Positions 2,978-49,417 of a DNA stretch of 64,000 bases are shown piece by piece. The translations under genes were made by a program, and so were the position numbers. Source of the DNA: Gammaproteobacteria bacterium (GTDB lineage: Bacteria; Pseudomonadota; Gammaproteobacteria; UBA6429; Thiohalophilaceae); assembly GCA_029881995.1 (NCBI GenBank), contig JAOULO010000001.1, positions 62,001 to 126,000 on the forward strand, given 5' to 3'. How positions within the stretch are numbered: position 1 is the stretch's first letter; every line of letters begins with the position of its first letter. The notes beneath the pieces were generated by a model. It ran no database searches and had not been told where the DNA came from. It saw nothing but the letters and a program-made list of their open reading frames with translations.

Positions 2978-3053
2978 AATAATCTCAACCTAAGTTTTAA
3001 TATTCCCTTGTTTAAACAAGACCGCCAATTCGTTTTGGGGTTGTGCCGACTTT

Positions 3054-3256
3054 GATGGCGCGTGTTTGGGTTTTGGTTTTTTTAAAATATAGATAGGTGG
3101 CCGCAGGGATGCGGCCGCATTGGCAGAGGGCCAGGACGGTCCTTCTGCCAATGCTCAACAAAAAACCAAAGCCCAAACACACGTTTGCGCCATCACTGGA
3201 GGCAATGGTTTTGGGTACTTTTGCCGAAACAAAAGTACCTCGTCTGTCAGGACGAG
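3054..3256. repeat. nested-hairpin intergenic element
   Basis: A long imperfect inverted repeat pairs 3054-3082 with about 3160-3194. Inside lie a GCCGC...GCGGC hairpin (about 3099-3115) and a strong stem GCATTGGCAG...CTGCCAATGC (3117-3154). Just downstream are a perfect 10-bp stem, GGTACTTTTG at 3214-3223 with CAAAAGTACC at 3229-3238 and loop CCGAAA, and a 6-bp stem CTCGTC/GACGAG (3239-3256). No ORF is visible here. From memory the GGTACTTTTG-type hairpin resembles dispersed elements of other proteobacteria. It may be a mobile miniature element, a structured RNA or a transcription barrier. Confidence 0.7.
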
Positions 3257-28394: not shown

Positions 28395-30884
28395 ATGAAT
28401 CATAAAACACCCCTAAACGTTGATCAGTTATATCGACACTGCGATATCACACAACTGAAGTTTAAAACAACGGAGGAACTACCTCGCCTCGAAGGAATGG
28501 TCGGTCAGGAACGGGCTCTTGATGCCCTGGAATTTGGCATTGGTATTCGACAACAGGGCTATAACCTGTTCGTATTAGGGCCTTCTGGTTCTGGCAAACA
28601 CACGATTACAGAACAACACCTGCAAATTCAATCCAGTCAGGAACCCACTCCCCCTGATTGTTGCTATGTAAATGACTTTAAACACCCACAACGCCCCTGG
28701 CTGGTTCAGCTTGCTCCTGGATTGGGTACAGTATTAAGCCAGGACATGGAGCAACTGCTTGAAGACCTGCGTAGCGCCATCCCCAATGCCTTTGAGGCTG
28801 AGGAATATCATGCGCGTCTGAACGAAATTGAAGATCAGTTAAAACAAAAGATCGAAAAAAGTTTTGCAGATCTGGGCAAGGATGCAGAACAACATGACGT
28901 CACACTGCTAAAGACACCCCATGGTTTTGCCTTTGCACCTGTTAAAAATGGTGAGGTACTCAAGCCAAAGGAATATCGTCTGCTGGCAGAGAAAGAACAA
29001 AACAAATATGAGGAAGTGATTTCCGTACTGGAAGAAAAACTCAATCTCATTCTTCGTCAACAATCTCAATGGCAACGTGAGGCCCGTCAGGAAGTCCATG
29101 CCCTGAACCGGGAAATTGCCCTGTTTGCTGCCGGGCATTTGATCGATGATCTTAAGGCTATATATAAGGATTATGAAAAACTGCAGGCCTATTTCGATGC
29201 CGTGCTGGAGGATGTCATCAGCCATCTTGATGACTTCCGTCGTGGCGAAGATGAATCCCAGGGTATGTTTGGGCTTAATGGGCATCCATCCTTTCATCGA
29301 TACCGGGTGAATGTATTTGTCGATAACAGTGACACGGATGGCAGCCCGGTCATTTATGAAAATAATCCCCTCTACCAGAACCTGTTAGGCCGGGTGGAAC
29401 ATAAGGCTCAGATGGGTACCCTGACTACGGACTTTACCCTGCTCAAGCCGGGTGCCCTGCACCTTGCCAACGGTGGCTATCTGATTCTGGATGCCACTAA
29501 ACTACTGCAACAGCCCTTTGCCTGGGAAGGCCTGAAACGGGCACTGACCTCCCGAGAGCTGAGTATTCAATCTCTGGCAGACCAATACAGCCTGATCAGC
29601 ACTGTCGGCCTGGAACCTGAGCCTGTCCCCCTGAACCTCAAAGTCATCCTGGTGGGAGAGCGACTCCTCTACTACCTCCTGCACGAGTACGACCCGGAAT
29701 TTGCCGAGCTGTTCAAGGTGGCCGCAGACTTTGAGAGCGAAATTGAGCACAACGAAGAAAATGTCGACCTTTTCGCCAAACTTATTGGCACGATCGTGAA
29801 AAATGAGCAACTTTTGCCCTTCCAGAATACTGCCGTTGGGCGGGTCATTGAATACTCATCTCGACTGATCGAGGATTCTCAAAAACTAAGTACCCATTTG
29901 CGAAGTATTGCCGACCTGCTTCGAGAAGCCGACTACTGGGCCGCCAAAGCGGGGCAAAAAGTCGTCAGCCCTGAGCATGTCCAGCATGCCATCGACCAGC
30001 AGGTTCGTCGTGCCGATCGCATCCAACAGGGTATCTATGAAGAAATTCGACGTGGCACGGTTCTCATCGATACTCAGGGTGAAAAAGTCGCCCAGGTCAA
30101 TGCCCTGTCCGTCATGGAACTGGGTGAACATGCCTTTGGTCAGCCCTCTCGTGTCACCGCCACCGCCCGGCTGGGTGAAGGTGAGGTGGTGGATATCGAA
30201 CGGGAAGTGGAAATGGGCGGGGCCATTCATTCCAAAGGGGTCTTTATTCTGGCCAATTTTCTCGGTGCCCGTTACGCCCAGGACCAGCCTCTCTCCCTGC
30301 ACGCCTCCCTGGTCTTTGAGCAATCCTATGGTGGTATCGAAGGAGACAGTGCCTCCATGGCCGAACTATGTGCCCTGCTCTCAGCCCTGTCGGACGTCGC
30401 CATCAAACAGTCCCTGGCCATCACCGGTTCAGTCAATCAGTTAGGTGAATCTCAGGCGATTGGTGGTGCCAATGAAAAAATTGAAGGCTTCTATGATGTC
30501 TGCAAGGCCATGGGCTTCAATGGAGAACAGGGTGTTTTAATTCCCAACTCCAACATACAGCACCTGATGTTAAGGGAAGACGTACGCCAGTCTACTGACA
30601 AGGGTGAATTTCATATCTATGCCTATGAAAATGTCGACCAGGCCATCGAGCTTCTTACAGGCTTACCCGCGGGTGAAAAAGATGATGAGGGAGAATATCC
30701 CGAAGGTTCAATCAACCGCCTGGTCTATGATCGTCTTGCCGAGCTGGAAGACATTAAGGAAAAGGCCAAGGCAGGTAAGGATGAGTCTGATAAAGAAGAC
30801 CATGATGATGAATCTGAAAATGAGTCAGACAAAGAAGACAAACAGGATAAAGAGTCAAAGGGTGATGCTACCAGCGATGAGTGA
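28395..30884 (+). CDS. Lon-family ATP-dependent protease (AAA_32/LonB-like)
   Basis: The protein degrades proteins using ATP. Walker A is GPSGSGKHT (about residues 61-69). A coiled-coil insertion spans about 130-270, and a Walker-B-like YLILDATKLL lies near 365. The C-terminal Lon peptidase domain has the catalytic Ser 652 in EGDSAS and Lys 695 in GGANEKIEGF, so the dyad is intact. The architecture matches the YcbZ/LrgB-type soluble Lon relatives, not classical Lon. A 40-residue Asp/Glu/Lys-rich tail ends the protein. The last 17 bases overlap the 3' end of the convergent barrel gene. Confidence 0.92.
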   Translation: MNHKTPLNVDQLYRHCDITQLKFKTTEELPRLEGMVGQERALDALEFGIGIRQQGYNLFVLGPSGSGKHTITEQHLQIQSSQEPTPPDCCYVNDFKHPQRPWLVQLAPGLGTVLSQDMEQLLEDLRSAIPNAFEAEEYHARLNEIEDQLKQKIEKSFADLGKDAEQHDVTLLKTPHGFAFAPVKNGEVLKPKEYRLLAEKEQNKYEEVISVLEEKLNLILRQQSQWQREARQEVHALNREIALFAAGHLIDDLKAIYKDYEKLQAYFDAVLEDVISHLDDFRRGEDESQGMFGLNGHPSFHRYRVNVFVDNSDTDGSPVIYENNPLYQNLLGRVEHKAQMGTLTTDFTLLKPGALHLANGGYLILDATKLLQQPFAWEGLKRALTSRELSIQSLADQYSLISTVGLEPEPVPLNLKVILVGERLLYYLLHEYDPEFAELFKVAADFESEIEHNEENVDLFAKLIGTIVKNEQLLPFQNTAVGRVIEYSSRLIEDSQKLSTHLRSIADLLREADYWAAKAGQKVVSPEHVQHAIDQQVRRADRIQQGIYEEIRRGTVLIDTQGEKVAQVNALSVMELGEHAFGQPSRVTATARLGEGEVVDIEREVEMGGAIHSKGVFILANFLGARYAQDQPLSLHASLVFEQSYGGIEGDSASMAELCALLSALSDVAIKQSLAITGSVNQLGESQAIGGANEKIEGFYDVCKAMGFNGEQGVLIPNSNIQHLMLREDVRQSTDKGEFHIYAYENVDQAIELLTGLPAGEKDDEGEYPEGSINRLVYDRLAELEDIKEKAKAGKDESDKEDHDDESENESDKEDKQDKESKGDATSDE

Positions 30885-36169: not shown

Positions 36170-37075
36170 CTAAGAGAGGTTATCTCCATACAGCCACTCC
36201 CTTGCTGTCTCAGTAATGGTCGCCACGGCGGGGTGGGAAATCTTTCTTTCAACAGAGATGGCATAGAACTGATCACGTACCTCACTGGTCTGTCCAATAC
36301 TTACCACGTCGTACTGTTTCTCCACTTCTTCTGCAATCGGTGTCGGGGCAATGAATACCCCAGTCCCTGCCCGACCAAAGGCCTTCATCAGGGCACTATC
36401 ATCAAACTCGCCAATAATTCTGGGGCGTAAACTATATTTATCGAACCAGCGAATAAGTTGGTGGTGTAACAAGCTAACTTCACCCGGAATCAGTAATGGG
36501 GCATTATTAAGGTTAAAGGGGAATTCTCCCTGTAGTTGGCTCGCCAATTCCGGCACAGAAAAGAAACTGATACCACACTCGCCCAATGGATGATTAAACC
36601 CTCGAACGTTTACATGAGAGGGAATGGGGCCATCTGCAATCACCATATCGATACGATGCACAGCCAGTTCGGCCAGCATGGACTCCAGATTCCCTTCACG
36701 GCAAACGATTCGTAGACGCCCAGACAATTTCAAGGCTGGAGCCAACAGACGATGCGTAATTGATTTAGGCACTACATCGACAATGCCTACCCGGAACGTG
36801 GTCGGTCTGCCTGCCGGTAACTGTCGTACCACTTCTTCCAGTTCACCTGTCAGGGAAAAGATTTCATCGGCATAACTTAATACCAGTCGCCCAAATTCAG
36901 TGAGTTGAAGGTTACGTCCAACCCGTTGAAACAGGGCCTCCCCCAGCTGATCTTCCAGTAAACCCAACTGACCACTGATAGTTTGTGGGGTGATATGTAA
37001 TTGTTCACTTGCCCGGGCGATGCTCCCCTGCCTGGCAACAACCCAAAAGTAGTGTAAATGCTTATTATTGATCAT
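36170..37075 (-). CDS. nhaR: LysR-type transcriptional activator NhaR
   Basis: The N-terminal winged helix (LHYFWVVARQGSIARASEQLHITPQTISGQLGLLEDQLG) is the NhaR version of the LysR HTH, with the PQTI signature. The effector half has VGIVDVVPKSI, IDMVIADGPI, LGECGISFF, NNAPLLIPGEVSLLHHQL, IIGEFDDSALMKAFG and VFIAPTPIAEEV, all close to E. coli NhaR. NhaR responds to Na+ and alkaline pH and can also control adhesin synthesis. No nhaA antiporter is present in the window. It is divergent from the hpf-like gene. Confidence 0.92.
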   Translation of the reverse strand: MINNKHLHYFWVVARQGSIARASEQLHITPQTISGQLGLLEDQLGEALFQRVGRNLQLTEFGRLVLSYADEIFSLTGELEEVVRQLPAGRPTTFRVGIVDVVPKSITHRLLAPALKLSGRLRIVCREGNLESMLAELAVHRIDMVIADGPIPSHVNVRGFNHPLGECGISFFSVPELASQLQGEFPFNLNNAPLLIPGEVSLLHHQLIRWFDKYSLRPRIIGEFDDSALMKAFGRAGTGVFIAPTPIAEEVEKQYDVVSIGQTSEVRDQFYAISVERKISHPAVATITETAREWLYGDNLS

Positions 37076-37195
37076 CTCGGTAATTCATCGTATTTTTCGA
37101 ATGAATGATAAATATTATTCGACTTTTTCTAAGTGTCAAGCCTGTTTAGGCTTGTTCCCTGTCAACTCCCCACATTTTGCCATGGAGCACACAAC

Positions 37196-37528
37196 ATGCA
37201 GATTGACATACAGGCTAGGGATTTTTCCCTCACCCCTGCACTACAGAAATACATCAGGCGTCGATTGGGTTATGCCCTGGGAAACCATGAAGAACGCATT
37301 CAATTTGTTCGTATCCGTTTGCTGGATATTAACGGTCCACGTGGTGGTAATGACAAACTCTGCCAGATCCAGGTTGTGTTGGCCTCTTTACCGGATGTGA
37401 TTATTGATGACATTGAAGCAGACATGTACGTCGCCATTGATCGGGCCTCAGACAGGGCTAGCCGAACAGTAGGACGTCGCCTCTCACGTCAACAGGATCT
37501 ATTACGTGGAATGTCATTACAAAGATAG
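37196..37528 (+). CDS. HPF/RaiA-family ribosome-associated protein
   Basis: The start at ATG 37196 follows GGAG by about 8 bases; earlier starts lack support. The sequence MQIDIQARDFSLTPALQKYIRRRLGYAL is the usual beginning of the ribosome-associated inhibitor family, with variations (HRLR basic patches: RRRLSRQQDLLRG). The 110-residue length is that of the short HPF. Its role is to hold ribosomes inactive in stress or stationary phase. It is divergent from nhaR and is followed 78 bases later by the Bax-inhibitor-1 gene, suggesting stress context. Confidence 0.85.
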   Translation: MQIDIQARDFSLTPALQKYIRRRLGYALGNHEERIQFVRIRLLDINGPRGGNDKLCQIQVVLASLPDVIIDDIEADMYVAIDRASDRASRTVGRRLSRQQDLLRGMSLQR

Positions 37529-37606: not shown

Positions 37607-38278
37607 ATGAACACGCCAATCAACCAGACACTGGACCGCAGTCAGTCTGTGATATTGAGTACCAACAAGGTTATTCGCAACACCTATACCCTGTTGTCTA
37701 TGACGTTGTTATTCAGTGCAGTAACAGCTGCCATTTCCATGTCCCTGAAACTACCCCACCCTGGCATATTACTTAGCCTGGTTGGATTTTTTGGCCTGTT
37801 GTTCCTGACCACAAAATTTCGTGACAGTGCAGTTGGTCTCGGCTTCGTTTTTGCACTAACAGGCTTCATGGGCTATACCCTTGGTCCCATTCTCAATACT
37901 TACCTGGCTATGAATAACGGTAGCCAGATTGTTATGACGGCTATGGGTGCAACCGGTGCGATCTTCCTTGGCCTGTCCATATATGCCCTGACGACACGCA
38001 AAGATTTCAGCTTTATGGGTGGCTTTCTCATGGTGGGAATCATCGTGGCCTTCCTGGCCGGGTTGGGTGCGGTGTTCTTTGAAATGCCCGGCCTATCGCT
38101 TGCCGTATCTGCGATGTTTGTCATGTTAATGGCTGGCCTCATTCTCTATGAAACAAGCAATATTATTCATGGTGGTGAGACCAATTACATTATGGCAACA
38201 GTGACGCTCTATGTATCTATCTTCAATTTATTCACCAGCCTGTTACACCTGCTGGGTTTCATGAATAACAATGAATAA
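37607..38278 (+). CDS. Bax inhibitor-1/YccA-family membrane protein (copy 1)
   Basis: The protein has seven predicted helices, SNKVIRNTY-like N-terminus (STNKVIRNTYTLLSMTLLFS), GFVFALTGFMGYTLGPILN in the middle and the conserved C-terminal block NIIHGGETNYIMATVTLYVSIFNLFTSLLHLLG. This is the BI-1/YccA family. E. coli YccA inhibits the FtsH membrane protease; other members leak Ca2+/H+. The first gene of module 1 has a strong AAAGGAG site. A diverged copy lies at 39666, each followed by an aldolase-like gene. Confidence 0.92.
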   Translation: MNTPINQTLDRSQSVILSTNKVIRNTYTLLSMTLLFSAVTAAISMSLKLPHPGILLSLVGFFGLLFLTTKFRDSAVGLGFVFALTGFMGYTLGPILNTYLAMNNGSQIVMTAMGATGAIFLGLSIYALTTRKDFSFMGGFLMVGIIVAFLAGLGAVFFEMPGLSLAVSAMFVMLMAGLILYETSNIIHGGETNYIMATVTLYVSIFNLFTSLLHLLGFMNNNE

Positions 38279-38302
38279 ACCTATGGCAAGGAGGACATAA
38301 CC

Positions 38303-39472
38303 ATGCCTATTATTGATATGAAGGATATGCTCAAACATGCCCGTTCTAACAAATATGCAGTATCTAGTTTTACTATCACCAACCTGGACATTCTCACTGC
38401 TGTCATTGATGCAGCAGAAGAAAATCATTCACCGGTCATACTGATCGTACCGTATCATCAGGTAGATGACAGAACACTAAAACTGCTCATGCCCGCAATT
38501 GAAGCCGCGGCGATAAATACTTCGGTTCCGGTTGCGATACAGGCTCGATGCAATCATGATTCACAGACCGCTATAAAGGGGATCAATGCAGGTTGTAATG
38601 CACTTATGCTTGACAACATCGACATTGATCATATTAAAAATATCACAAAAACAGCACATGATTGCGGAATAACTGTTGAAGGCAGGCTAAACAACAGACC
38701 CGATGTATTCGAAGCCATCCTCTTCGTTGAAGAAACAAATGTTGATTTACTTAATTTAACAATGGAAGGTACATCCGAGGGAAACATCACTGATCCGTAT
38801 CTGGCACGCTCTATCCTCAACGAGCTCCAGGTTTGTCAGCGAGCCGCACTCGTTTTAAACGTAAACAGCAATCTCAATGAAGAACATTGTCATCAGTATA
38901 TTGCACATGGGATCGTCAAAGTAAATTTTGACACACTACTACAAGATGTCATTGACACTCATTTATGTATTAGTCAAGAAGACACTTTCACTGGATATAG
39001 TAATCTCATGCTCGGTATTCACGCGATTGTTCGCAGTGAAGCAGCCGCCTGCATGCAACTGTGTCAAAGCAATGGTAAAGCGAAAGCTATGTTAAACCAC
39101 TGTACCCCCTGGCTTCCTATTGAACACCTGATTATCTTTAATGTTAGTGATATCGATGATGTACAGGCCAAGGCTATGATGACCGAGGGCAAAAAGTCAC
39201 TGAGCACTCTGCCCGGTGTAAGAAGTGTTGTAACCGCAACCGCCATAAAAGAAGATGCACAATTCCGCTTTAGCTGGCTGATTCGTTTCTGTCATCCGTC
39301 AGTAATCGATAGCTATCGTGATCACCCTGTTCATGTTGACTTTGCTGATCGCCTGTTCCGACCCGTGGCCGGAGATAGAATCAGTATCGATTACCAATGG
39401 AACAGTGATCAAGCACAGCAGGAAGAAGTAACAGGCTTACTACCCCCTCTTATGGTGGTAGAAAACGCATAG
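38303..39472 (+). CDS. degenerate class II aldolase fused to Dabb domain (copy 1)
   Basis: Residues 1-265 follow fructose-bisphosphate aldolase class II from the start (MPIIDMKDMLKHARSNKYAVSSFTITN) through GIVKVNFDT near 210. However the Asp-His zinc/catalytic motif LHLDH is replaced by IQARCNHD, TSHG by TSEG, and LHGGSG by LNVNSN. So all the metal ligands seem lost. Residues about 270-370 form a stress-responsive alpha/beta-barrel (Dabb) domain: PIEHLIIFNV, LSTLPGVRSVVTATA, FSWLIRFCHP, DHPVHVDF. The gene lies 24 bases after the BI-1 gene with an AAGGAGG site, so co-expression is near certain. A sensor or scaffold role is likelier than catalysis. Confidence 0.8.
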   Translation: MPIIDMKDMLKHARSNKYAVSSFTITNLDILTAVIDAAEENHSPVILIVPYHQVDDRTLKLLMPAIEAAAINTSVPVAIQARCNHDSQTAIKGINAGCNALMLDNIDIDHIKNITKTAHDCGITVEGRLNNRPDVFEAILFVEETNVDLLNLTMEGTSEGNITDPYLARSILNELQVCQRAALVLNVNSNLNEEHCHQYIAHGIVKVNFDTLLQDVIDTHLCISQEDTFTGYSNLMLGIHAIVRSEAAACMQLCQSNGKAKAMLNHCTPWLPIEHLIIFNVSDIDDVQAKAMMTEGKKSLSTLPGVRSVVTATAIKEDAQFRFSWLIRFCHPSVIDSYRDHPVHVDFADRLFRPVAGDRISIDYQWNSDQAQQEEVTGLLPPLMVVENA

Positions 39473-39665
39473 TCAGTCAAATCAAGGAATAGTTGGTACG
39501 AATATCTGGATTCTCGTAACCAGTATTCCTTTCCTGACCCGGTATATTACCGACTATATTGGTACATATAAGTAACTAGCAGTGTCTGGAAATGTATTGT
39601 CCAGCCGGTACTTGAAAAGCAAGGAAGCTTTATTTTTCGAGAACACCCTGAAGGAGACAGATGTC

Positions 39666-40301
39666 ATGCACATACCTGATACAAATTCATCTTCTGTAAG
39701 CAGAACATCACATATAAGCTCGAATAAGGTAATCAGAAACACCTTTGCCCTGTTATCCCTGTTCCTGTTTGTCGGAATGCTGGTGGCTAACCTGTCATTG
39801 TCCTTAACCCTCCCTTATTTTGTCATTATTTGTTGTTTGGTCACTTACCCTGTCATGCTGTTTCTTATAAGCAAATTCCAGAACTCTTCAAATTGTATAT
39901 GGCTGGTGTTTACCTTTAGCATTATTGCAGCTTTTACTATTGGGCCAATTTTCAATACCTTTCTGGCCTGGAACATAGCCAGTCAGTTGATGGTGAACAT
40001 CCTGTTTTCTGTCGGCTTAATTTTTATGTGTCTGTCACTTTATGCCCAGGTTTCATTAACACCGTTCAAATTTTATGGTAGCTATGGTGTAATCATGACT
40101 GTCGTCGCTTTTTTCTCTGGTCCACTTGCCCTGATTTCAGATAAATCTGCATTGTCATTGATATTATCTGTGATTATTATTCTACTAATAACTGGTCTGA
40201 CACTGTATAAAATCAGTAATTTTATTGATGCTGGTGAAACCAACCCGCGCCATATAATCACAAGACTGTTTGCATCTGTATTTAGGACTAAAGTTTTATA
40301 A
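39666..40301 (+). CDS. Bax inhibitor-1/YccA-family membrane protein (copy 2, diverged)
   Basis: Start ATG 39666 follows AAGGAGACAGATGTC. The protein shares the N-terminal SSNKVIRNTFALLSLFLF and TIGPIFNTFLAWNIASQL with copy 1, and the later GETN motif. Its C-terminus is altered: after GETN it reads PRHIITRLFASVFRTKVL and the final conserved helix (LYVSIFNLFTSLL in copy 1) is missing. It may be a functional variant or in decay. It is 211 residues against 223 for copy 1. Confidence 0.82.
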   Translation: MHIPDTNSSSVSRTSHISSNKVIRNTFALLSLFLFVGMLVANLSLSLTLPYFVIICCLVTYPVMLFLISKFQNSSNCIWLVFTFSIIAAFTIGPIFNTFLAWNIASQLMVNILFSVGLIFMCLSLYAQVSLTPFKFYGSYGVIMTVVAFFSGPLALISDKSALSLILSVIIILLITGLTLYKISNFIDAGETNPRHIITRLFASVFRTKVL

Positions 40302-40341
40302 AATAAATATTACCAACTGATACCTCATAAGAGAAAAAATA

Positions 40342-41427
40342 ATGCCAATTGTCAATTACCAGAACATGATGCTGCATGCCAAAAAACATCAATATGCAAT
40401 ACCTTCTTTTGAGATAAACTGCCTGAACACCCTGCATGGAGCCCTTTCTGCAGCCGAACAACATCAGTCACCTGTTATATTCATCATCCCGGAAGTTTCA
40501 TCAGAAAACCATACAACTGATCTTTTGTCACCTTCAGTTGAAGCAGCGGCATCAGCAGTCAATGTCCCCATTACCATCCAGTCACAAATTCGGTTCGATC
40601 AGGAATCAGCAATTCAAGCCATCAATACAGGCGGCAACTCACTCGTCATAAATTCACCTGGACAAAAATTCGATACCTGGATAAATGATCTAAACAAAAT
40701 CTCCCAGATATGTCATTCGTGTGGAGTACCAATAGAAGTTAATCTTACCAACTCACCAGACCTTGAGCTTAATCAGCTTAAACAAATAAATACAGATAGC
40801 ATGCATATTTCATCATTTTTTTTTAACAATCATATAAATGAACTAAAGAATGAAATCTCGGCCCCTTTGAGTATCGACCATGATGCCAGCTTGGAAAAAT
40901 TGCAGTACAAGCATTTACTCGAAAATGGTATAGCTAAAGTCAATTTCAAAGGGATACTACTCGATACTCTGGAAAACCAAATACGCCAGAACTGCAATAA
41001 CAACTTGCAAGGTTGTTCTGGATTGATGGAGCGTACCCATACTACCATCCAAGATATGGCGGCTCGCTGTATAGAATATTGCCAAAGCACGGGTAAAGCA
41101 GAAGACCAGCTTGAGAATTGCACACCATGGGCACCGATAGAACATCTCATTATATTTAACGTGAGTGGCATAGATGATCAACAGGCCCAGGCCATGATGG
41201 CTGAAGGGAAAGAATCATTGAGCACCCTGCCCGGTGTTAGAAGTGTGGTAACGGCCACTGCCGTAAAAGAAGATGCACAATTTCGATTCAGCTGGCTGAT
41301 CCGGTTCTGTCACCCGGCCGTGATTGATAGTTATCGTGATCACCCCGTGCATGTTGATTTTGCGGATCGCCTGTTTAGACCGGTTGCGGGAGATAGAATC
41401 AGCATCGATTACCAGTGGAATAGTTAA
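40342..41427 (+). CDS. degenerate class II aldolase fused to Dabb domain (copy 2)
   Basis: The N-terminal 255 residues are a much diverged aldolase-like barrel (MPIVNYQNMMLHAKKHQYAIP, later GIAKVNFKG). It has no metal-ligand motif: VPITIQSQIRFD and LSIDHDAS stand where the His motifs would be. In contrast the last 105 residues (PIEHLIIFNVSGIDD to IDYQWNS) are almost identical in protein to copy 1 while differing at many synonymous positions. The copy 1 extension (DQAQQEEVTGLLPP) is absent. The gene follows the second BI-1 gene by 40 bases. Confidence 0.8.
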   Translation: MPIVNYQNMMLHAKKHQYAIPSFEINCLNTLHGALSAAEQHQSPVIFIIPEVSSENHTTDLLSPSVEAAASAVNVPITIQSQIRFDQESAIQAINTGGNSLVINSPGQKFDTWINDLNKISQICHSCGVPIEVNLTNSPDLELNQLKQINTDSMHISSFFFNNHINELKNEISAPLSIDHDASLEKLQYKHLLENGIAKVNFKGILLDTLENQIRQNCNNNLQGCSGLMERTHTTIQDMAARCIEYCQSTGKAEDQLENCTPWAPIEHLIIFNVSGIDDQQAQAMMAEGKESLSTLPGVRSVVTATAVKEDAQFRFSWLIRFCHPAVIDSYRDHPVHVDFADRLFRPVAGDRISIDYQWNS

Positions 41428-41541: not shown

Positions 41542-44500
41542 ATGATTGCTCGATTTGTAGAATTCTTTGTTGACCGTCACCTGCTGACCAACCTGCTGTT
41601 CATTGCCATTATTATTGGTGGCCTGCAGGCATGGCAATCTATTAAAAAAGAAGAAAGACCCGATGTGACCTATGACATGGTCCGCATTACAGCCTTTTAT
41701 CCAGGTGCAACAGCAGAAGAAGTCGAATACTTCGTCACCCGTGAGCTGGAACAAGAACTCAAAGCTATTGATGGCATCCTGCACATCTATAGCAGCGTCA
41801 ATCGGGGCAGCACCATTGTTTCTGCTGAGCTGGAAAATGGCCTGCCCAATCGTGATGAAACCATTACCGAAATCCGCAATGCCGCCCTGACCACAGTCCT
41901 GCCCCCTGAAGTACGTGATAAACCCACCGTGCGGGTTTTCAAAAGCTCGAAAAAGGCCATTATCGATATCGCCCTGGTTCACACCAAGGCCCACCTGATG
42001 AACATCAAACAGCGGCTGGAACTACAAAAGACCGCCGCCGCCCTGGAACTGCAACTGGTCAACCTGCCCTATATAAATAGTGTCAATCGTTCTGGCTACC
42101 TGCAGCAGGAACTACAGGTCAATGCCGATCCCAAAAAACTGGCCCATTATCGCATTCCCCTCAGCACGGTAATCAACGAGGTCAGCAACAACCACATCCG
42201 CACCCCGGCAGGCAGTCTTGAGGTAAAGGATGAACCCAGTGTCACTATCGATGCCCAGCTCGACTCGGTAGAAAAACTCAACAAACTATATGTACAGGCG
42301 GATTTTCTAGGCAAGGCCATCTCACTCAAGGACATTGCCGAGGTACGTACCGAGTTTCGACGTGAAAAACAGATCACCAAGGTCAATGGCCATGAAGCGG
42401 TGATGTTTAACGTGGTGAAGAACAGCAGCTATGGCATTATCGAATCCCTCGAAGCGGTACAAAAGGTCGTGGATGATTTTCGCGCCAATAACCTGCTCGA
42501 CTCTGATATCCAGCTAGTGATCCTCGATGATGAATCCTATGATGTACGCAACCGCCTGTCGATCATTTCCATCAATGGTGCCATCGGTTTTGTCCTGATC
42601 CTGTTGACCCTGTTCCTGTTTCTCAATAAGCAATCCGGCATCTGGGTGGCCATGGGCATCCCCTTTACCATCTGCGCAACACTGATTGCCGCCATGCTGA
42701 TGGGGTATACCATTAATAATGTCACCCTGGCAGCGGTGATCATCGTAATGGGTATTGTGGTAGACGATGCCATTGTGGTAGCAGAAAACATAGGTCGTCA
42801 TCGTAGCCAGGGGCTCAGTTCTCATGAGGCCGCCATCAAAGGTACCTCCCAGGTCTTTATGCCGGTGATGGCCAGCATCGTAACCACCTGTGTAGCCTTT
42901 GTGCCACTGTTCTTCTTCTCAGGTCGCTTTGGATCTTTTGTCAGTTATATTCCACCGGTTGTGTTTCTCATGTTGCTGGCCAGTCTACTTGAATCCCTGG
43001 TGATTCTACCCGGCCACATGCACTTTCAGGCCCCGCGCATCTTTAAACGTGGTGAAGCAAAACAGAGTCTTGAAACCATTAAGGCCCACTGGTTCGATGT
43101 GTATGAAAACCGTTACGGTGATCTACTCATTAAACTCTTAAACAAACGTTATGCCATCCTGGCCGGGTTTGTTGCGCTATTTGCCGGTTCATTGTTATTA
43201 GCCAGCCAGACCATGAAGTTTGTTCTCTTCCCCCATACGGAAACACGCGAGATCGTGATGATTGGTTTTGCCGACAAAAAGGCCGATCGTTATGACACGG
43301 CCCAGGTCACCAAACCCATTGAAGACATAATCAAACCCTGGATAGGTAAAGAGGTGGTAGGCTTTCGCACCGAGATCGCCAAGAGCCGTTACGGTGGTGT
43401 GGCAAAAGAAAATCGATTCAGGATGATCATCGAGATCGTCCCACGGGAAGAGCGAGACAAGTCCGCCGATGAACTGGTCGCCCAGTGGAAACCCCTGGCC
43501 GAAAAAGTACCGGGTGTTAAAAAACTGCGCATCCAGAAGAGTCGCTGGGGTCATGCCTCCGGTGTGGCCATTGAAGTGCTGGTACTGCAAAACGATGACA
43601 AGCTACGTGATGCCGCTGCAAAAAAAATACTCGCTGCACTGGAACAACATCCACAGTTGATGAATGCCGAGATCGATGCCCCGATTCGCCTGCCCGAATA
43701 CAAGATCGATATTCTGCGTGATAAGGCCAAGCGCGTTTCCATCAGCCCGACCAACATCGCCACCACCTTCCGTGCCTCACTGGAAGGTGAGATCCTGTAT
43801 GAACTGCCCAATGGTAATGAACACATCGACCTGCGCCTGTCGGTCATTGATGATGCCAAACGTGATATTGAAAGTATCCTGAGAATCCCCGTTGAACACC
43901 GGGGTGACTACCTCGCTCAACTGGGTGAGTATGTCACCATCAACAAAGTTGAATCGCCCCTTTCCATTAACCGTCGTGACTCCCGCCGTGTAACCAAGGT
44001 GCTGGCAGGATTGAAACCCGATGCAACAATCACCCCACTGGAAGTTGCCGATCATCTGGAACAGGGTGTGTTCCGCGAAATCCTACGTGCCCAACCCTCC
44101 ACCAGCCTGAACTTCGATGGCGAGATCGCCGACACGCGGGAATCAAAAGGTGACCTGCGCAATGCCATCATACTGGTGATCTTCCTGATCTTTGTCATCC
44201 TGGCCATGCTGTTTAATTCCCTGACCCGCCCCATCCTGATCATGCTGGCCATTCCCTTTGGAGTGACCGGTGTCATCCTCGCCTTCTGGGCACACGGCCA
44301 GCACCTGTTCGGATTCTTCGCCGCTATCGGTACTCTGGGTATGGCCGGTGTGGTGATCAACGATGCCATCATCATGCTCACCAAACTGGATCAGGAATAT
44401 GACAATGGCAACAGCAACTCGATAAATGAAAAGATCGCCCGCATCGCCCAGACCCGACTCAAAGCTGTGAGCCTGACCACCTTAACCACCGTGGCCGGTG

Positions 44501-44670
44501 TCATGCCAACGGCTTATGGCCTGGCCGGTTTTGATGCCATGCTGTCAGAAATGATGATGGCCATGGCCTGGGGTCTGTTGTTTGGATCACTCATCACCCT
44601 GTTGATGGTGCCCTGTCTGTATCATGTCTTGCAGGACATGCGGGCGAGGTTTCATGCTGAACTGAAATAG
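41542..44670 (+). CDS. RND-superfamily efflux permease, second solo copy
   Basis: This is a full-length RND permease of 1042 residues. The start (MIARFVEFFVDRHLLTNLLF) is typical, the TM4 motif GIVVDDAIVVAENI is intact at about residue 400, and the C-terminal helix bundle contains GMAGVVINDAIIMLTKLDQE. It resembles the heavy-metal or hydrophobe (HAE1-like) permeases of the kind found in operons with an adaptor, yet no adaptor or outer-membrane partner is beside it. It differs widely from the pump at 3455. The start lacks a clear ribosome site. Confidence 0.9.
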   Translation: MIARFVEFFVDRHLLTNLLFIAIIIGGLQAWQSIKKEERPDVTYDMVRITAFYPGATAEEVEYFVTRELEQELKAIDGILHIYSSVNRGSTIVSAELENGLPNRDETITEIRNAALTTVLPPEVRDKPTVRVFKSSKKAIIDIALVHTKAHLMNIKQRLELQKTAAALELQLVNLPYINSVNRSGYLQQELQVNADPKKLAHYRIPLSTVINEVSNNHIRTPAGSLEVKDEPSVTIDAQLDSVEKLNKLYVQADFLGKAISLKDIAEVRTEFRREKQITKVNGHEAVMFNVVKNSSYGIIESLEAVQKVVDDFRANNLLDSDIQLVILDDESYDVRNRLSIISINGAIGFVLILLTLFLFLNKQSGIWVAMGIPFTICATLIAAMLMGYTINNVTLAAVIIVMGIVVDDAIVVAENIGRHRSQGLSSHEAAIKGTSQVFMPVMASIVTTCVAFVPLFFFSGRFGSFVSYIPPVVFLMLLASLLESLVILPGHMHFQAPRIFKRGEAKQSLETIKAHWFDVYENRYGDLLIKLLNKRYAILAGFVALFAGSLLLASQTMKFVLFPHTETREIVMIGFADKKADRYDTAQVTKPIEDIIKPWIGKEVVGFRTEIAKSRYGGVAKENRFRMIIEIVPREERDKSADELVAQWKPLAEKVPGVKKLRIQKSRWGHASGVAIEVLVLQNDDKLRDAAAKKILAALEQHPQLMNAEIDAPIRLPEYKIDILRDKAKRVSISPTNIATTFRASLEGEILYELPNGNEHIDLRLSVIDDAKRDIESILRIPVEHRGDYLAQLGEYVTINKVESPLSINRRDSRRVTKVLAGLKPDATITPLEVADHLEQGVFREILRAQPSTSLNFDGEIADTRESKGDLRNAIILVIFLIFVILAMLFNSLTRPILIMLAIPFGVTGVILAFWAHGQHLFGFFAAIGTLGMAGVVINDAIIMLTKLDQEYDNGNSNSINEKIARIAQTRLKAVSLTTLTTVAGVMPTAYGLAGFDAMLSEMMMAMAWGLLFGSLITLLMVPCLYHVLQDMRARFHAELK

Positions 44671-46284: not shown

Positions 46285-49257
46285 TTATTGCAATTTGATA
46301 GCCACAAGACCTCCATTACTCTCCCTCATGCCAGTAGCAATAAATAAGGTTTTATTCTCTGAAATTGAGAGCATACCAGGCATTGGGTAAGTCCATACAG
46401 ACTGTTTTGTAGCAAGGTCTATTGCATGAACTTTTAGATTCGTACTAACAAAAAGAAGATTGTCTGTAACAATAACATTCCGATGCATCTGCGTTTCACT
46501 GACATCCGTTGGAATCCAGCTCCAAAGTATGTCACCGGTATTTATATCAATAGCGTCCAGGCGACCCAATGAACTACTCCCTATATACACGACCCCATCC
46601 TTTACTGCAGGCTGTGTCAGATAGAGATCTGTTGAATTCCAAAGATGCGTTTTACTTTCTATATCAAATGCAGAGAGGTTTCGTTCAGTATATTGCTCAA
46701 CATTAGCAGATGCCCTACCGCTGAAGGCTCCACCGGCGTATGCCAAGACAATATTATCGTACACAACTGGAGCTCCATGGTAAGCATGACTTGCATATAA
46801 ATTCAGGCCATCATCAATTGTAAACTCAAGCTCGCTAGTTTTGCGGTTTAACGCATTTAGTTTTTCCCCATTGTGATGGAACACATAATTACCAGAGACT
46901 GCAGGCGTGTACATGTCCCATGCACCACCTAATGACTTACTCCATTGTTCCTGGCCATCGATAGTATTAAATGAGTGAACGTAACCACCATAATAGCCTC
47001 CCCCCTGATAAATTGAGTTACCATAAGGTGTAGGCGCAAAGAAATGGGGCCACTGGCCACTAAAAGCTGAACTGTGTAGTACACTGCCAGTATTAAAATC
47101 AAAGGCATGTAGAAAGGTGTCCTGATGACCGGTGGTTGCGGCCCATACTTTGCCATCGCTTATAGCAGGTTGATTAAGGGCCGGCATATAACCTAAACTG
47201 GTCTCCCACACTTGATTACCCGTTGCTTCATCAAGCATAACTACTGAAGCGTCACCAAAATAAACATCGTAGCTGAGAACCACTTTACCATCCTGTGCAA
47301 CAACCGGATTAATACCTCCTATGGGCTCGCTACTTGAGGGCCTTGTCCATGTCCAACCTTCGATAAAGTTATTAGCATCCAGAGTAATGGGAATATACCC
47401 GGTATGTCCGGCATTTCGTTGATGGGTAGTCCAACCCGCCAACTGATTTATGTCATACGTAACTGCAACAGTACTGGTTGACGTTCCTATGACATGATCA
47501 CAGCTAAGTTCAAGACAGACCTTAAAGCTCACATCTGTTGAAACGCTACCTAGTTGCTTTTGTGGCAGCAGTTCCAATGGGAGGGTAAAGTTGCCTTGCT
47601 TAGGTAACAACACACCACCGTTTATGATAGCTCCGCCACTACTATCTGTTGTAACAAGGTATGCTGGCAGGTTTCCAATATCACTTACCAACCAGTTACC
47701 GCTCAGTTCTGTAAATGTTGGTGTACCATCTTTCCCTGTTACATTTATAGCAGTCTCATTTACAGTCAGTTCAGCACTTGGGTATAACACGCTTAGTGTG
47801 ACGTCGGTAGTTCCTGGTACGGAGCTTAAGACCGTATTGCAGGACGAATCTGCACATACCCTGGATTTAATTTGAAACGTACGCACATCGGCACTAATGG
47901 CATCGACAGGATATGTTTCTAATTGGACGTCGATTGGTGTATTAGAAAGTAAATTAGGACCAATCATTGTATTTTTTAAATAAACACCACTTGGATCGTA
48001 AATATTTATCCAAAAAGACGAGGCAACATCATCTCCACTGGCCAAATTAATTTCATATTGGAACGTACTAGACTCAAGAACAGTTTGAGAAAAAGACAAG
48101 GTTGAGTCTGTTGGCAAACTGGAGATAATTGGATGTCGCACCGTTAAGCTTACAGGAATTGTGACTGGTTCCTGAAGCTTTTCAACGCAATAAATATCCT
48201 TACAGAAACTAACAGACATAGTACTATTGTATACACCAGTAGCATGTAAATACAGCGTCTGCATTTCCAGTGTTACTTTCTGAGATACACTATACAATGT
48301 GTAAGTTTGTGTCTGAAAATTTATATTACTATCATTAATCAAAACATACAGAGGGTGGAAATAGTCATAACCCTCAGCATCAAAATCTATATCCAAATTT
48401 ACCCTATTCGATTGGCCGACAATTACTTCTTCTGTAATATTGTTTGTCAACACAGTGGCAGAGGTAAATCGTGGACTGGCATCAACATTAACCGTTACCG
48501 TTTTGTCTCCATAAACCTTATCTACACAGGTTACATCCTGACAAAATTCTATGTTTATTTGGGTTGAAACTGAGGTTGCCTCCGCAAAAACTCTAGAAGC
48601 CAGCGCTAATGAAACATCCGTTGAGAAATCAATAACATTATGTAATATTGTCGGGAAATACCCCTTACTATCAGACAATTTTATTACCAAAGGATTATCC
48701 GCATTGTATCCATATGAGGTAATTGCAAGACCGATATTTATATTTGCCGTGTCGCCGACAGTAATGCTTTGTGAAATTGGATTTGTAAGTAATTTAACAT
48801 ATGTAACCTCACCTATTGGAATCGGTGTGTCACCATCTGAGTTCACCGTTATACCGTTGCATATGTAGTGAGAACTGGAAACTTCTTCAGTATCAAGGAT
48901 TGAATTTCTATTGTTATCAGTACCAACTTCAAAAAGAACACCGCCATAAAGACAATTAATCCCAGGTGACTCTTCCGTCGTACGTACCAAAGCAGTTACA
49001 CCATTGATCCCATTGCAGACCTTTTCCGATTTGTCTACTTCGTCGGCATCTAAAATGCCATTGCGGTTCTCATCAATGCCCGTTTCTACCAGTATCCCAC
49101 CATTTGGGCAATCCGGATCATTCAATTCAATAATTGAACTCTTTACAGCAACAGAAGCTTCACTACGTGTTTCTGTATCGCCCCCACCACATGCAGACAA
49201 CATCAAAAATAGAAATAAACTCCCAACGTTACCAAAAGAACTTTTACGAAATAACAT
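46285..49257 (-). CDS. large lipoprotein with DUF7151-like repeats and PQQ-type beta-propeller
   Basis: Start ATG 49257 gives a lipoprotein signal (FLFLMLSACGGG, Cys 22). Two DUF7151-like repeats follow (NGGILVETGIDENRNGILD and GGVLFEVGTDNNRNSILD, each ending in VCNG or ICNG). Then come about 450 residues of beta-sandwich repeats (DIDFDAEGYDYFHPLYVLI type) and from about 615 a PQQ-like propeller: YGNSIYQGGGYYGGYVHSF, LDAIDINTGDILWSW, VHAIDLATKQSVWTYP. It is likely an outer-membrane-attached protein for adhesion or binding. The long poly-G tract just before the start may control expression. Confidence 0.75.
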   Translation of the reverse strand: MLFRKSSFGNVGSLFLFLMLSACGGGDTETRSEASVAVKSSIIELNDPDCPNGGILVETGIDENRNGILDADEVDKSEKVCNGINGVTALVRTTEESPGINCLYGGVLFEVGTDNNRNSILDTEEVSSSHYICNGITVNSDGDTPIPIGEVTYVKLLTNPISQSITVGDTANINIGLAITSYGYNADNPLVIKLSDSKGYFPTILHNVIDFSTDVSLALASRVFAEATSVSTQINIEFCQDVTCVDKVYGDKTVTVNVDASPRFTSATVLTNNITEEVIVGQSNRVNLDIDFDAEGYDYFHPLYVLINDSNINFQTQTYTLYSVSQKVTLEMQTLYLHATGVYNSTMSVSFCKDIYCVEKLQEPVTIPVSLTVRHPIISSLPTDSTLSFSQTVLESSTFQYEINLASGDDVASSFWINIYDPSGVYLKNTMIGPNLLSNTPIDVQLETYPVDAISADVRTFQIKSRVCADSSCNTVLSSVPGTTDVTLSVLYPSAELTVNETAINVTGKDGTPTFTELSGNWLVSDIGNLPAYLVTTDSSGGAIINGGVLLPKQGNFTLPLELLPQKQLGSVSTDVSFKVCLELSCDHVIGTSTSTVAVTYDINQLAGWTTHQRNAGHTGYIPITLDANNFIEGWTWTRPSSSEPIGGINPVVAQDGKVVLSYDVYFGDASVVMLDEATGNQVWETSLGYMPALNQPAISDGKVWAATTGHQDTFLHAFDFNTGSVLHSSAFSGQWPHFFAPTPYGNSIYQGGGYYGGYVHSFNTIDGQEQWSKSLGGAWDMYTPAVSGNYVFHHNGEKLNALNRKTSELEFTIDDGLNLYASHAYHGAPVVYDNIVLAYAGGAFSGRASANVEQYTERNLSAFDIESKTHLWNSTDLYLTQPAVKDGVVYIGSSSLGRLDAIDINTGDILWSWIPTDVSETQMHRNVIVTDNLLFVSTNLKVHAIDLATKQSVWTYPMPGMLSISENKTLFIATGMRESNGGLVAIKLQ

Positions 49258-49260
49258 ACT

Positions 49261-49269
49261 CCCCCCCCC
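49261..49269 (-). repeat. G9 homopolymer tract at the ribosome site of the propeller lipoprotein
   Basis: On the minus strand nine G residues followed by AGT precede the ATG at 49257. The tract provides the Shine-Dalgarno sequence and, as a mononucleotide run, is prone to slip-strand length change. Confidence 0.55.
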
Positions 49270-49417
49270 AAGATTAAATATAGGATTCTGAATTCCGACC
49301 ATTTAGTTACATGTAGCCATTCTAACCTAATAAATTTTATCATTAAACCAGGATAATCATATAACTGATATTTCGTTATAATTTTCCGATGAAACTTGGA
49401 TTTTTCTTTATATCTAT

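Follow-up and report, generated by a model that had tools for sequence, protein, structure and literature searches.

Duplicated aldolase-Dabb fusions with lost aldolase active sites behind an HPF-YccA gene pair in a gammaproteobacterial genome

Two adjacent gene pairs, each coding for a Bax-inhibitor-1 (BI-1)/YccA membrane protein followed by a class II aldolase barrel fused to a Dabb domain, were located at positions 37607-41427, all on the + strand, of a 64,000-nucleotide stretch of a gammaproteobacterial genome (assembly GCA_029881995.1, contig JAOULO010000001.1, positions 62,001 to 126,000), hereafter the window. An original prediction had described these pairs from the sequence alone and read them as a membrane stress switch. 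The pairs themselves were borne out by the four open reading frames and by Pfam matches to Bax1-I, F_bP_aldolase and Dabb. We found that the two fusions probably (with a probability of about 0.6) represent a relocated, tandemly duplicated and non-catalytic branch of a CbbA-like aldolase-Dabb family that otherwise accompanies RuBisCO operons. The family and its CO2-fixation context, the single clade of relocated copies, the loss of the active sites and the constraint on the Dabb domains were observed directly. The window fusions are most likely non-catalytic paralogues that were retained for a role that we infer for their Dabb domain. On this reading, the window system descends from carbon-fixation machinery, either put to another use or in decay, and was not built from scratch as a stress switch.

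The aldolase-Dabb family and CO2 fixation

Aldolase-Dabb fusions form a family that is common in Gammaproteobacteria and linked to CO2 fixation. The fusion was found in 61 of 369 genomes of a sample of the class, and RuBisCO was present in 59 of these 61 genomes versus 128 of the 308 fusion-less ones (Fisher p 1e-17, with no correction for kinship; because the genomes share ancestry, such p-values overstate the evidence). The two fusion-bearing genomes with no RuBisCO match (G298 and G334) possibly reflect assembly gaps. Both window fusions belong to the family by their architecture, a class II aldolase barrel and then a C-terminal Dabb domain, and by their placement in the tree among CbbA-like members.

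Gene neighbourhoods were compared in 60 fetched loci, with relatives and the class sample pooled. RuBisCO, CbbQ/O, CbbX or DabB-like genes were located within 10 kb of the fusion gene and on the same strand in 32 of them. The fusion gene commonly closes both RuBisCO-CbbQO and RuBisCO-CbbX operons, frequently in the order cbbR beside rbcL-rbcS-cbbQ-cbbO-(120-aa protein)-fusion, with cbb names that we take from the matched sequences and our own reading. A 1043-aa neighbour of the fusion at L061 is DabA, and the gene directly following the fusion at L108 encodes a carbonic anhydrase. Another 22 loci contained neither CO2-fixation or uptake neighbours nor a gene for the ribosome-hibernation protein HPF; RuBisCO vicinity is thus usual, not defining.

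Further genes recurred in these neighbourhoods. The fusion was near NuoL-like/DabB genes of the inorganic-carbon uptake system at L061, where DabA was confirmed, and at L064, L113, L118 and L128. Two small proteins with no Pfam match (~120 and ~103 aa; L051:5809-6177 and L051:9464-9775) recurred in RuBisCO-CbbQO operons, the ~120-aa one between cbbO and the aldolase-Dabb gene (homologues, e.g., L138:5122-5541). In two RuBisCO operons (L063:8114-8989 and L100), a gene for an HtpX-like M48 peptidase lies between those for the 120-aa protein and the aldolase-Dabb fusion.

The window fusions had no RuBisCO or CO2-uptake genes in their vicinity and were sited behind an HPF gene and a YccA gene, with a divergent nhaR-like gene upstream. 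In the window genome (G000), the RuBisCO operon is spread over contigs C79 and C32 and carries no fusion gene downstream of cbbO. A separate, intact class II fructose-bisphosphate aldolase is encoded in the same genome (G000:C32), so that Calvin-cycle catalysis need not depend on the window fusions.

Active-site loss and constraint on the Dabb domain

In intact members of the family, by the established residue roles of class II aldolases, D82 is the catalytic Asp and H83, H181 and H209 are the zinc ligands. The Asp and all three His were present in 38 of the 52 fusions outside the HPF locus, and the Asp in 50 of them. Alignment of the window fusions with relatives and ordinary aldolases confirmed the earlier claim that the zinc and catalytic motifs are replaced in both barrels: the four positions are occupied by R82, C83, E159 and N186 in fusion a and by Q82, I83, a gap and D179 in fusion b, so that neither barrel has the catalytic Asp or any zinc His, and the zinc and catalytic residues of the HxDH, GTxH and HGG motifs are gone. 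The window copies kept two of the nine active-site positions that are invariant among intact members. Other barrel invariants were retained at 32 of 48 positions in fusion a and 19 of 48 in fusion b, and Dabb invariants at 10 of 11 in both. The window fusions are accordingly predicted, from their residues, to be non-catalytic as aldolases.

Both fusions were modelled by AlphaFold as a complete barrel with a Dabb domain, at a mean predicted local distance difference test score of 89.4 (a) and 92.2 (b), and the best PDB folds for fusion a were class II aldolases (Foldseek E down to 5e-20). The intact modelled fold, together with the retained Glu126 and Asn208 positions, would suit barrels that had gained zinc-independent chemistry or a new ligand. 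However, the phosphate-loop glycines are also lost and the replacement residues are not common to the two copies, which makes such a gain very improbable. The proposal that the two barrels sense different ligands found no support, given the loss of substrate- and metal-binding residues and the fast evolution of the barrels.

Altered sites were also observed elsewhere in the family. In a mostly CbbQO-linked clade (L051, L059, L068, L069, L101, L105, L116, L132, L136 and L137), Gln replaces the second zinc His (GTVQG) and the VEGE Glu is exchanged for Val or Ile, indicating that altered metal sites occur inside RuBisCO operons too. In G029, a degenerate fusion directly after cbbO is found besides a separate intact copy (L055 and L056), and active-site loss is therefore not confined to the HPF locus.

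The Dabb domains showed the opposite pattern to the barrels. The aldolase halves of a and b are 33% identical, in line with the wide divergence noted originally, whereas their Dabb domains share 91-92% protein identity despite different codons at 41 of the 92 positions with the same residue. The nonsynonymous divergence (dN) of the Dabb domains was 0.05 and the maximum-likelihood synonymous divergence (dS) ~1.5 (likelihood range ~0.9-2.7), with dN/dS ~0.03; these values uphold the claim that strong selection, rather than recent copying, accounts for the near identity. In trees of each half, the end branches of the aldolase half were 1.41 (a) and 3.59 (b) versus a median of 0.26 for all rows, and those of the Dabb half were 0.06 in both copies versus a median of 0.22. 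Copies a and b were sisters in both trees (support 90 and 100), so that one duplication is enough to explain them.

Recent gene conversion of the Dabb domain was rejected on silent divergence. An old conversion would account for a dS of ~1.1 over the last 65 codons, below that of the barrel middle, and for Dabb domains that are far closer to each other than to their orthologues (55-69% identity). We regard it as doubtful, since dS over the first 60 codons is similar or even lower (~0.6) at many changed amino acids, and one age of duplication can explain both ends; the very high dS of the barrel middle is unreliable at 33% identity and may be misalignment, and the Dabb dN/dS is 0.03. The similar silent divergence at both ends points to a duplication of moderate age, with the Dabb protein identity kept by purifying selection. 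The homologue from the same genus (L050) shares only 61-65% with the window Dabb domains, and the 92% likeness of a and b above this level suggests a constraint specific to the window genome, such as a-b pairing.

Alternatively, copy b (YccA b and fusion b) or else both barrel halves might simply be decaying, with a function limited to carrying Dabb. This would agree with the high dN of the barrel and of YccA b, the lost active sites, the truncation of YccA b and the weak ribosome-binding site before fusion b. We nevertheless think it unlikely, as all frames are open, the structural barrel invariants persist in the numbers given above and Dabb b is as constrained as Dabb a. In the preferred reading of relocated paralogues retained for their Dabb domain, a barrel that decays while the Dabb domain stays makes Dabb, not the aldolase, the indispensable part in the HPF-locus clade. 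This clade thereby separates the two domains by evolution, the barrel being free to decay and Dabb not, and makes the role of Dabb in autotrophs directly testable.

The HPF-YccA locus and its clade

The genes around nhaR and HPF were compared among relatives. Divergent nhaR followed by HPF-YccA-fusion was found once each in G002, G010, G014 and G158, the only genomes besides that of the window in which a YccA neighbour of the fusion was found. In G037 and G304 the fusion follows HPF with no intervening YccA, and HPF thus precedes a YccA or aldolase gene in six relatives. G018, G029 and G033 have nhaR and the HPF-YccA pair with no fusion there, and the start of the same arrangement was found in G057. 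The tandem duplicate of the window genome was the only one found. The eight HPF-locus fusions form one clade (Shimodaira-Hasegawa-type approximate likelihood ratio 96) beside RuBisCO-linked copies. The active-site Asp was retained in one of these eight versus 50 of 52 others, and the sites are graded from intact (G014) through a replaced Asp (G002, G158 and G037) to the loss of all or nearly all residues (G010, G304 and the window). A second, RuBisCO-linked fusion copy is also held by G002, G037 and G158, and not by the window genome.

Both membrane proteins belong to the BI-1 family, with Pfam Bax1-I matches above the gathering score; their best NCBIfam match is YccA (NF007765), at 249.6 and 77.2 bits and hence below the cut-off of 353. 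YccA a shares 76-86% identity with orthologues at the same locus, and a canonical YccA (55% identity) is encoded elsewhere in the genome (G000:C24). BI-1 b is only 36-38% identical to BI-1 a, and alignment with orthologues showed that it is truncated at the C-terminus, without the end of the last transmembrane helix, as the original prediction had partly anticipated from its divergent C-terminus. Conserved residues are lost from it as well; in helix 6, a Lys replaces a residue that is acidic or amide in relatives (LYE to LYK).

The stress switch, in which YccA and the Dabb protein would jointly act on ion leak or on proteolysis at the membrane and the two barrels would serve as sensors, is favoured by the conserved HPF-YccA-aldolase-Dabb order in four genomes, by the close spacing of BI-1 a and fusion a (24 bp) and by HPF being a stress-linked family by name. 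A search across genomes did recover the proposed BI-1 and aldolase-Dabb pair in those four, but most family loci have no YccA. Two clade members have HPF and the fusion with no YccA between them, fusion-less HPF-YccA pairs occur, YccA a evolves slowly while the aldolase evolves fast, and YccA b is truncated. We therefore judge the switch to be decidedly improbable for the window, and as the meaning of the family it gave way to the link with RuBisCO operons and the mostly kept zinc site. A general BI-1/aldolase pairing was rejected, as such an HPF or YccA neighbour was missing from 54 of 60 loci of relatives.

Several points weigh against a relocated, non-catalytic branch as well. The clade spans fully intact (G014) to fully lost sites, so the HPF locus does not require a dead barrel, and because it is a single clade the losses are not independent events in the statistics. 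No intact family member was found in the assemblies of G000, G010 and G304, which rules out pairing with an active CbbA-like fusion as the general role. The AlphaFold models draw on aligned intact relatives and show that the sequences fit the barrel fold rather than that this fold is stable.

With these points in mind, the relocated branch probably arose as follows. An ancestral, zinc-intact fusion came to sit behind the HPF-YccA pair, as the single clade shows. Its barrel lost the catalytic Asp and zinc ligands and became a fast-evolving carrier that, by sequence and model, still fits the barrel fold, with Dabb meanwhile under strong purifying selection; the YccA-aldolase pair was duplicated in the window genome. 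Copies a and b, having a near-identical Dabb face, would probably pair with each other or bind one shared partner through it. The Dabb domain might have a regulatory or ligand-binding role in carbon metabolism, and the fusions might be expressed together with HPF and YccA, i.e., at slowing growth. That the ex-aldolase serves as a non-catalytic regulatory subunit, with a near-constant, heteromeric Dabb that connects CO2 fixation with the hibernation of ribosomes and with membrane proteolysis under YccA control, is a long shot.

Gene layout and nearest known systems

The HPF and nhaR-like genes lie upstream of the part of the window that the original prediction had covered (Table 1). The HPF/YfiA assignment rests on the S30AE domain, with a Pfam match above the cut-off and a TIGR00741 equivalog match below it. 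For BI-1 b, the mechanical open reading frame begins at 39582, and the start at 39666, already given in the original prediction, is favoured by the ribosome-binding site GAAGGAG and by alignment. Good ribosome-binding sites precede the first three of the four frames. Promoter and terminator scans of the cluster region gave no more matches than in shuffles, and Rfam gave no match there.

Table 1. Features of the cluster region and other features of the window
Feature	Position	Strand	Evidence and remarks
NhaR-like LysR regulator	36170..37075	-	NCBIfam NhaR above cut-off, 5e-80; divergent from cluster; position kept in relatives
HPF/YfiA-like ribosome-hibernation protein	37193..37528	+	First gene of cluster; Pfam Ribosomal_S30AE 6e-10
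BI-1/YccA paralogue, copy a	37607..38278	+	Pfam Bax1-I 9e-50
Aldolase-Dabb fusion, copy a	38303..39472	+	Pfam F_bP_aldolase 3e-29, Dabb 4e-9; barrel ~ residues 1-260, Dabb ~266-366, low-confidence tail of ~20 residues
BI-1/YccA paralogue, copy b	39666..40301	+	Pfam Bax1-I 2e-12; fast-evolving
Aldolase-Dabb fusion, copy b	40342..41427	+	Pfam F_bP_aldolase 7e-21, Dabb 6e-9; Dabb end = protein end
Large RND-type transporter reading frame	41542-44670	+	Directly 3' of cluster; not conserved at this site in relatives
TwoAYGGAY RNA motif	3053-3189	+	Barely over Rfam threshold (44.1 vs 43); upstream of AcrB-type transporter
LonB-like AAA protease	28395-30884	+
1005-aa protein	46285-49302	-	DUF7151 and PQQ_2 (BamB-like) domains

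The barrel fold of the window fusions is common to class II tagatose/fructose-bisphosphate and sulfofructose-phosphate aldolases (PDB 1gvf, 6ofu, 8q57-8q59), from which the window fusions differ in having neither zinc ligands nor catalytic Asp and in carrying an extra Dabb domain. A scan of genome contigs with one protein as query matched only aldolases belonging to other groups. Compared with Dabb proteins (PDB 3bde, Mll5499; plant olivetolic acid cyclase), the window Dabb domains keep the N-terminal His (EHLIIF) and the YxxHPxH motif, so that the positions of His and Tyr in Dabb cyclases are retained. Tyr72 and His78 of olivetolic acid cyclase, a numbering that we take from our alignment, align with the Tyr and the last His of this motif, and the window Dabb domains are possibly catalytic. 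They differ in being fused to a barrel and having no known substrate, and the sequence match is weak (E 7e-6 and 0.09). E. coli YccA, an FtsH modulator, and B. subtilis YetJ (PDB match 2e-13) belong to the BI-1 family, as do the window membrane proteins. Unlike E. coli YccA, the window proteins fall below the YccA cut-off and are a second paralogue beside a canonical YccA, and copy b is without part of the last helix.

The YccA-fusion pairing is undescribed as far as we searched, as the original prediction had held for the layout; the fusion itself is already recorded, as A. ferrooxidans cbbA (PMC2942843), and uncharacterised. Literature searches for Dabb and aldolase with RuBisCO or carboxysome found nothing, no paper on the function of the fusion was found, and the only record found combining Pfam07876 with RuBisCO was that same paper. 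Its gene table lists Pfam01116 and Pfam07876 for cbbA of the Acidithiobacillus ferrooxidans cbb1 operon (ACK80290.1), annotated as fructose-bisphosphate aldolase and sited among RuBisCO, carboxysome, cbbQ1 and cbbO1 genes (PMC2942843). By this gene-table listing, rather than by sequence, cbbA and the window fusions share the class II aldolase and Dabb domains; cbbA sits in a RuBisCO operon, whereas the window fusions follow HPF-YccA and no longer have an active site.

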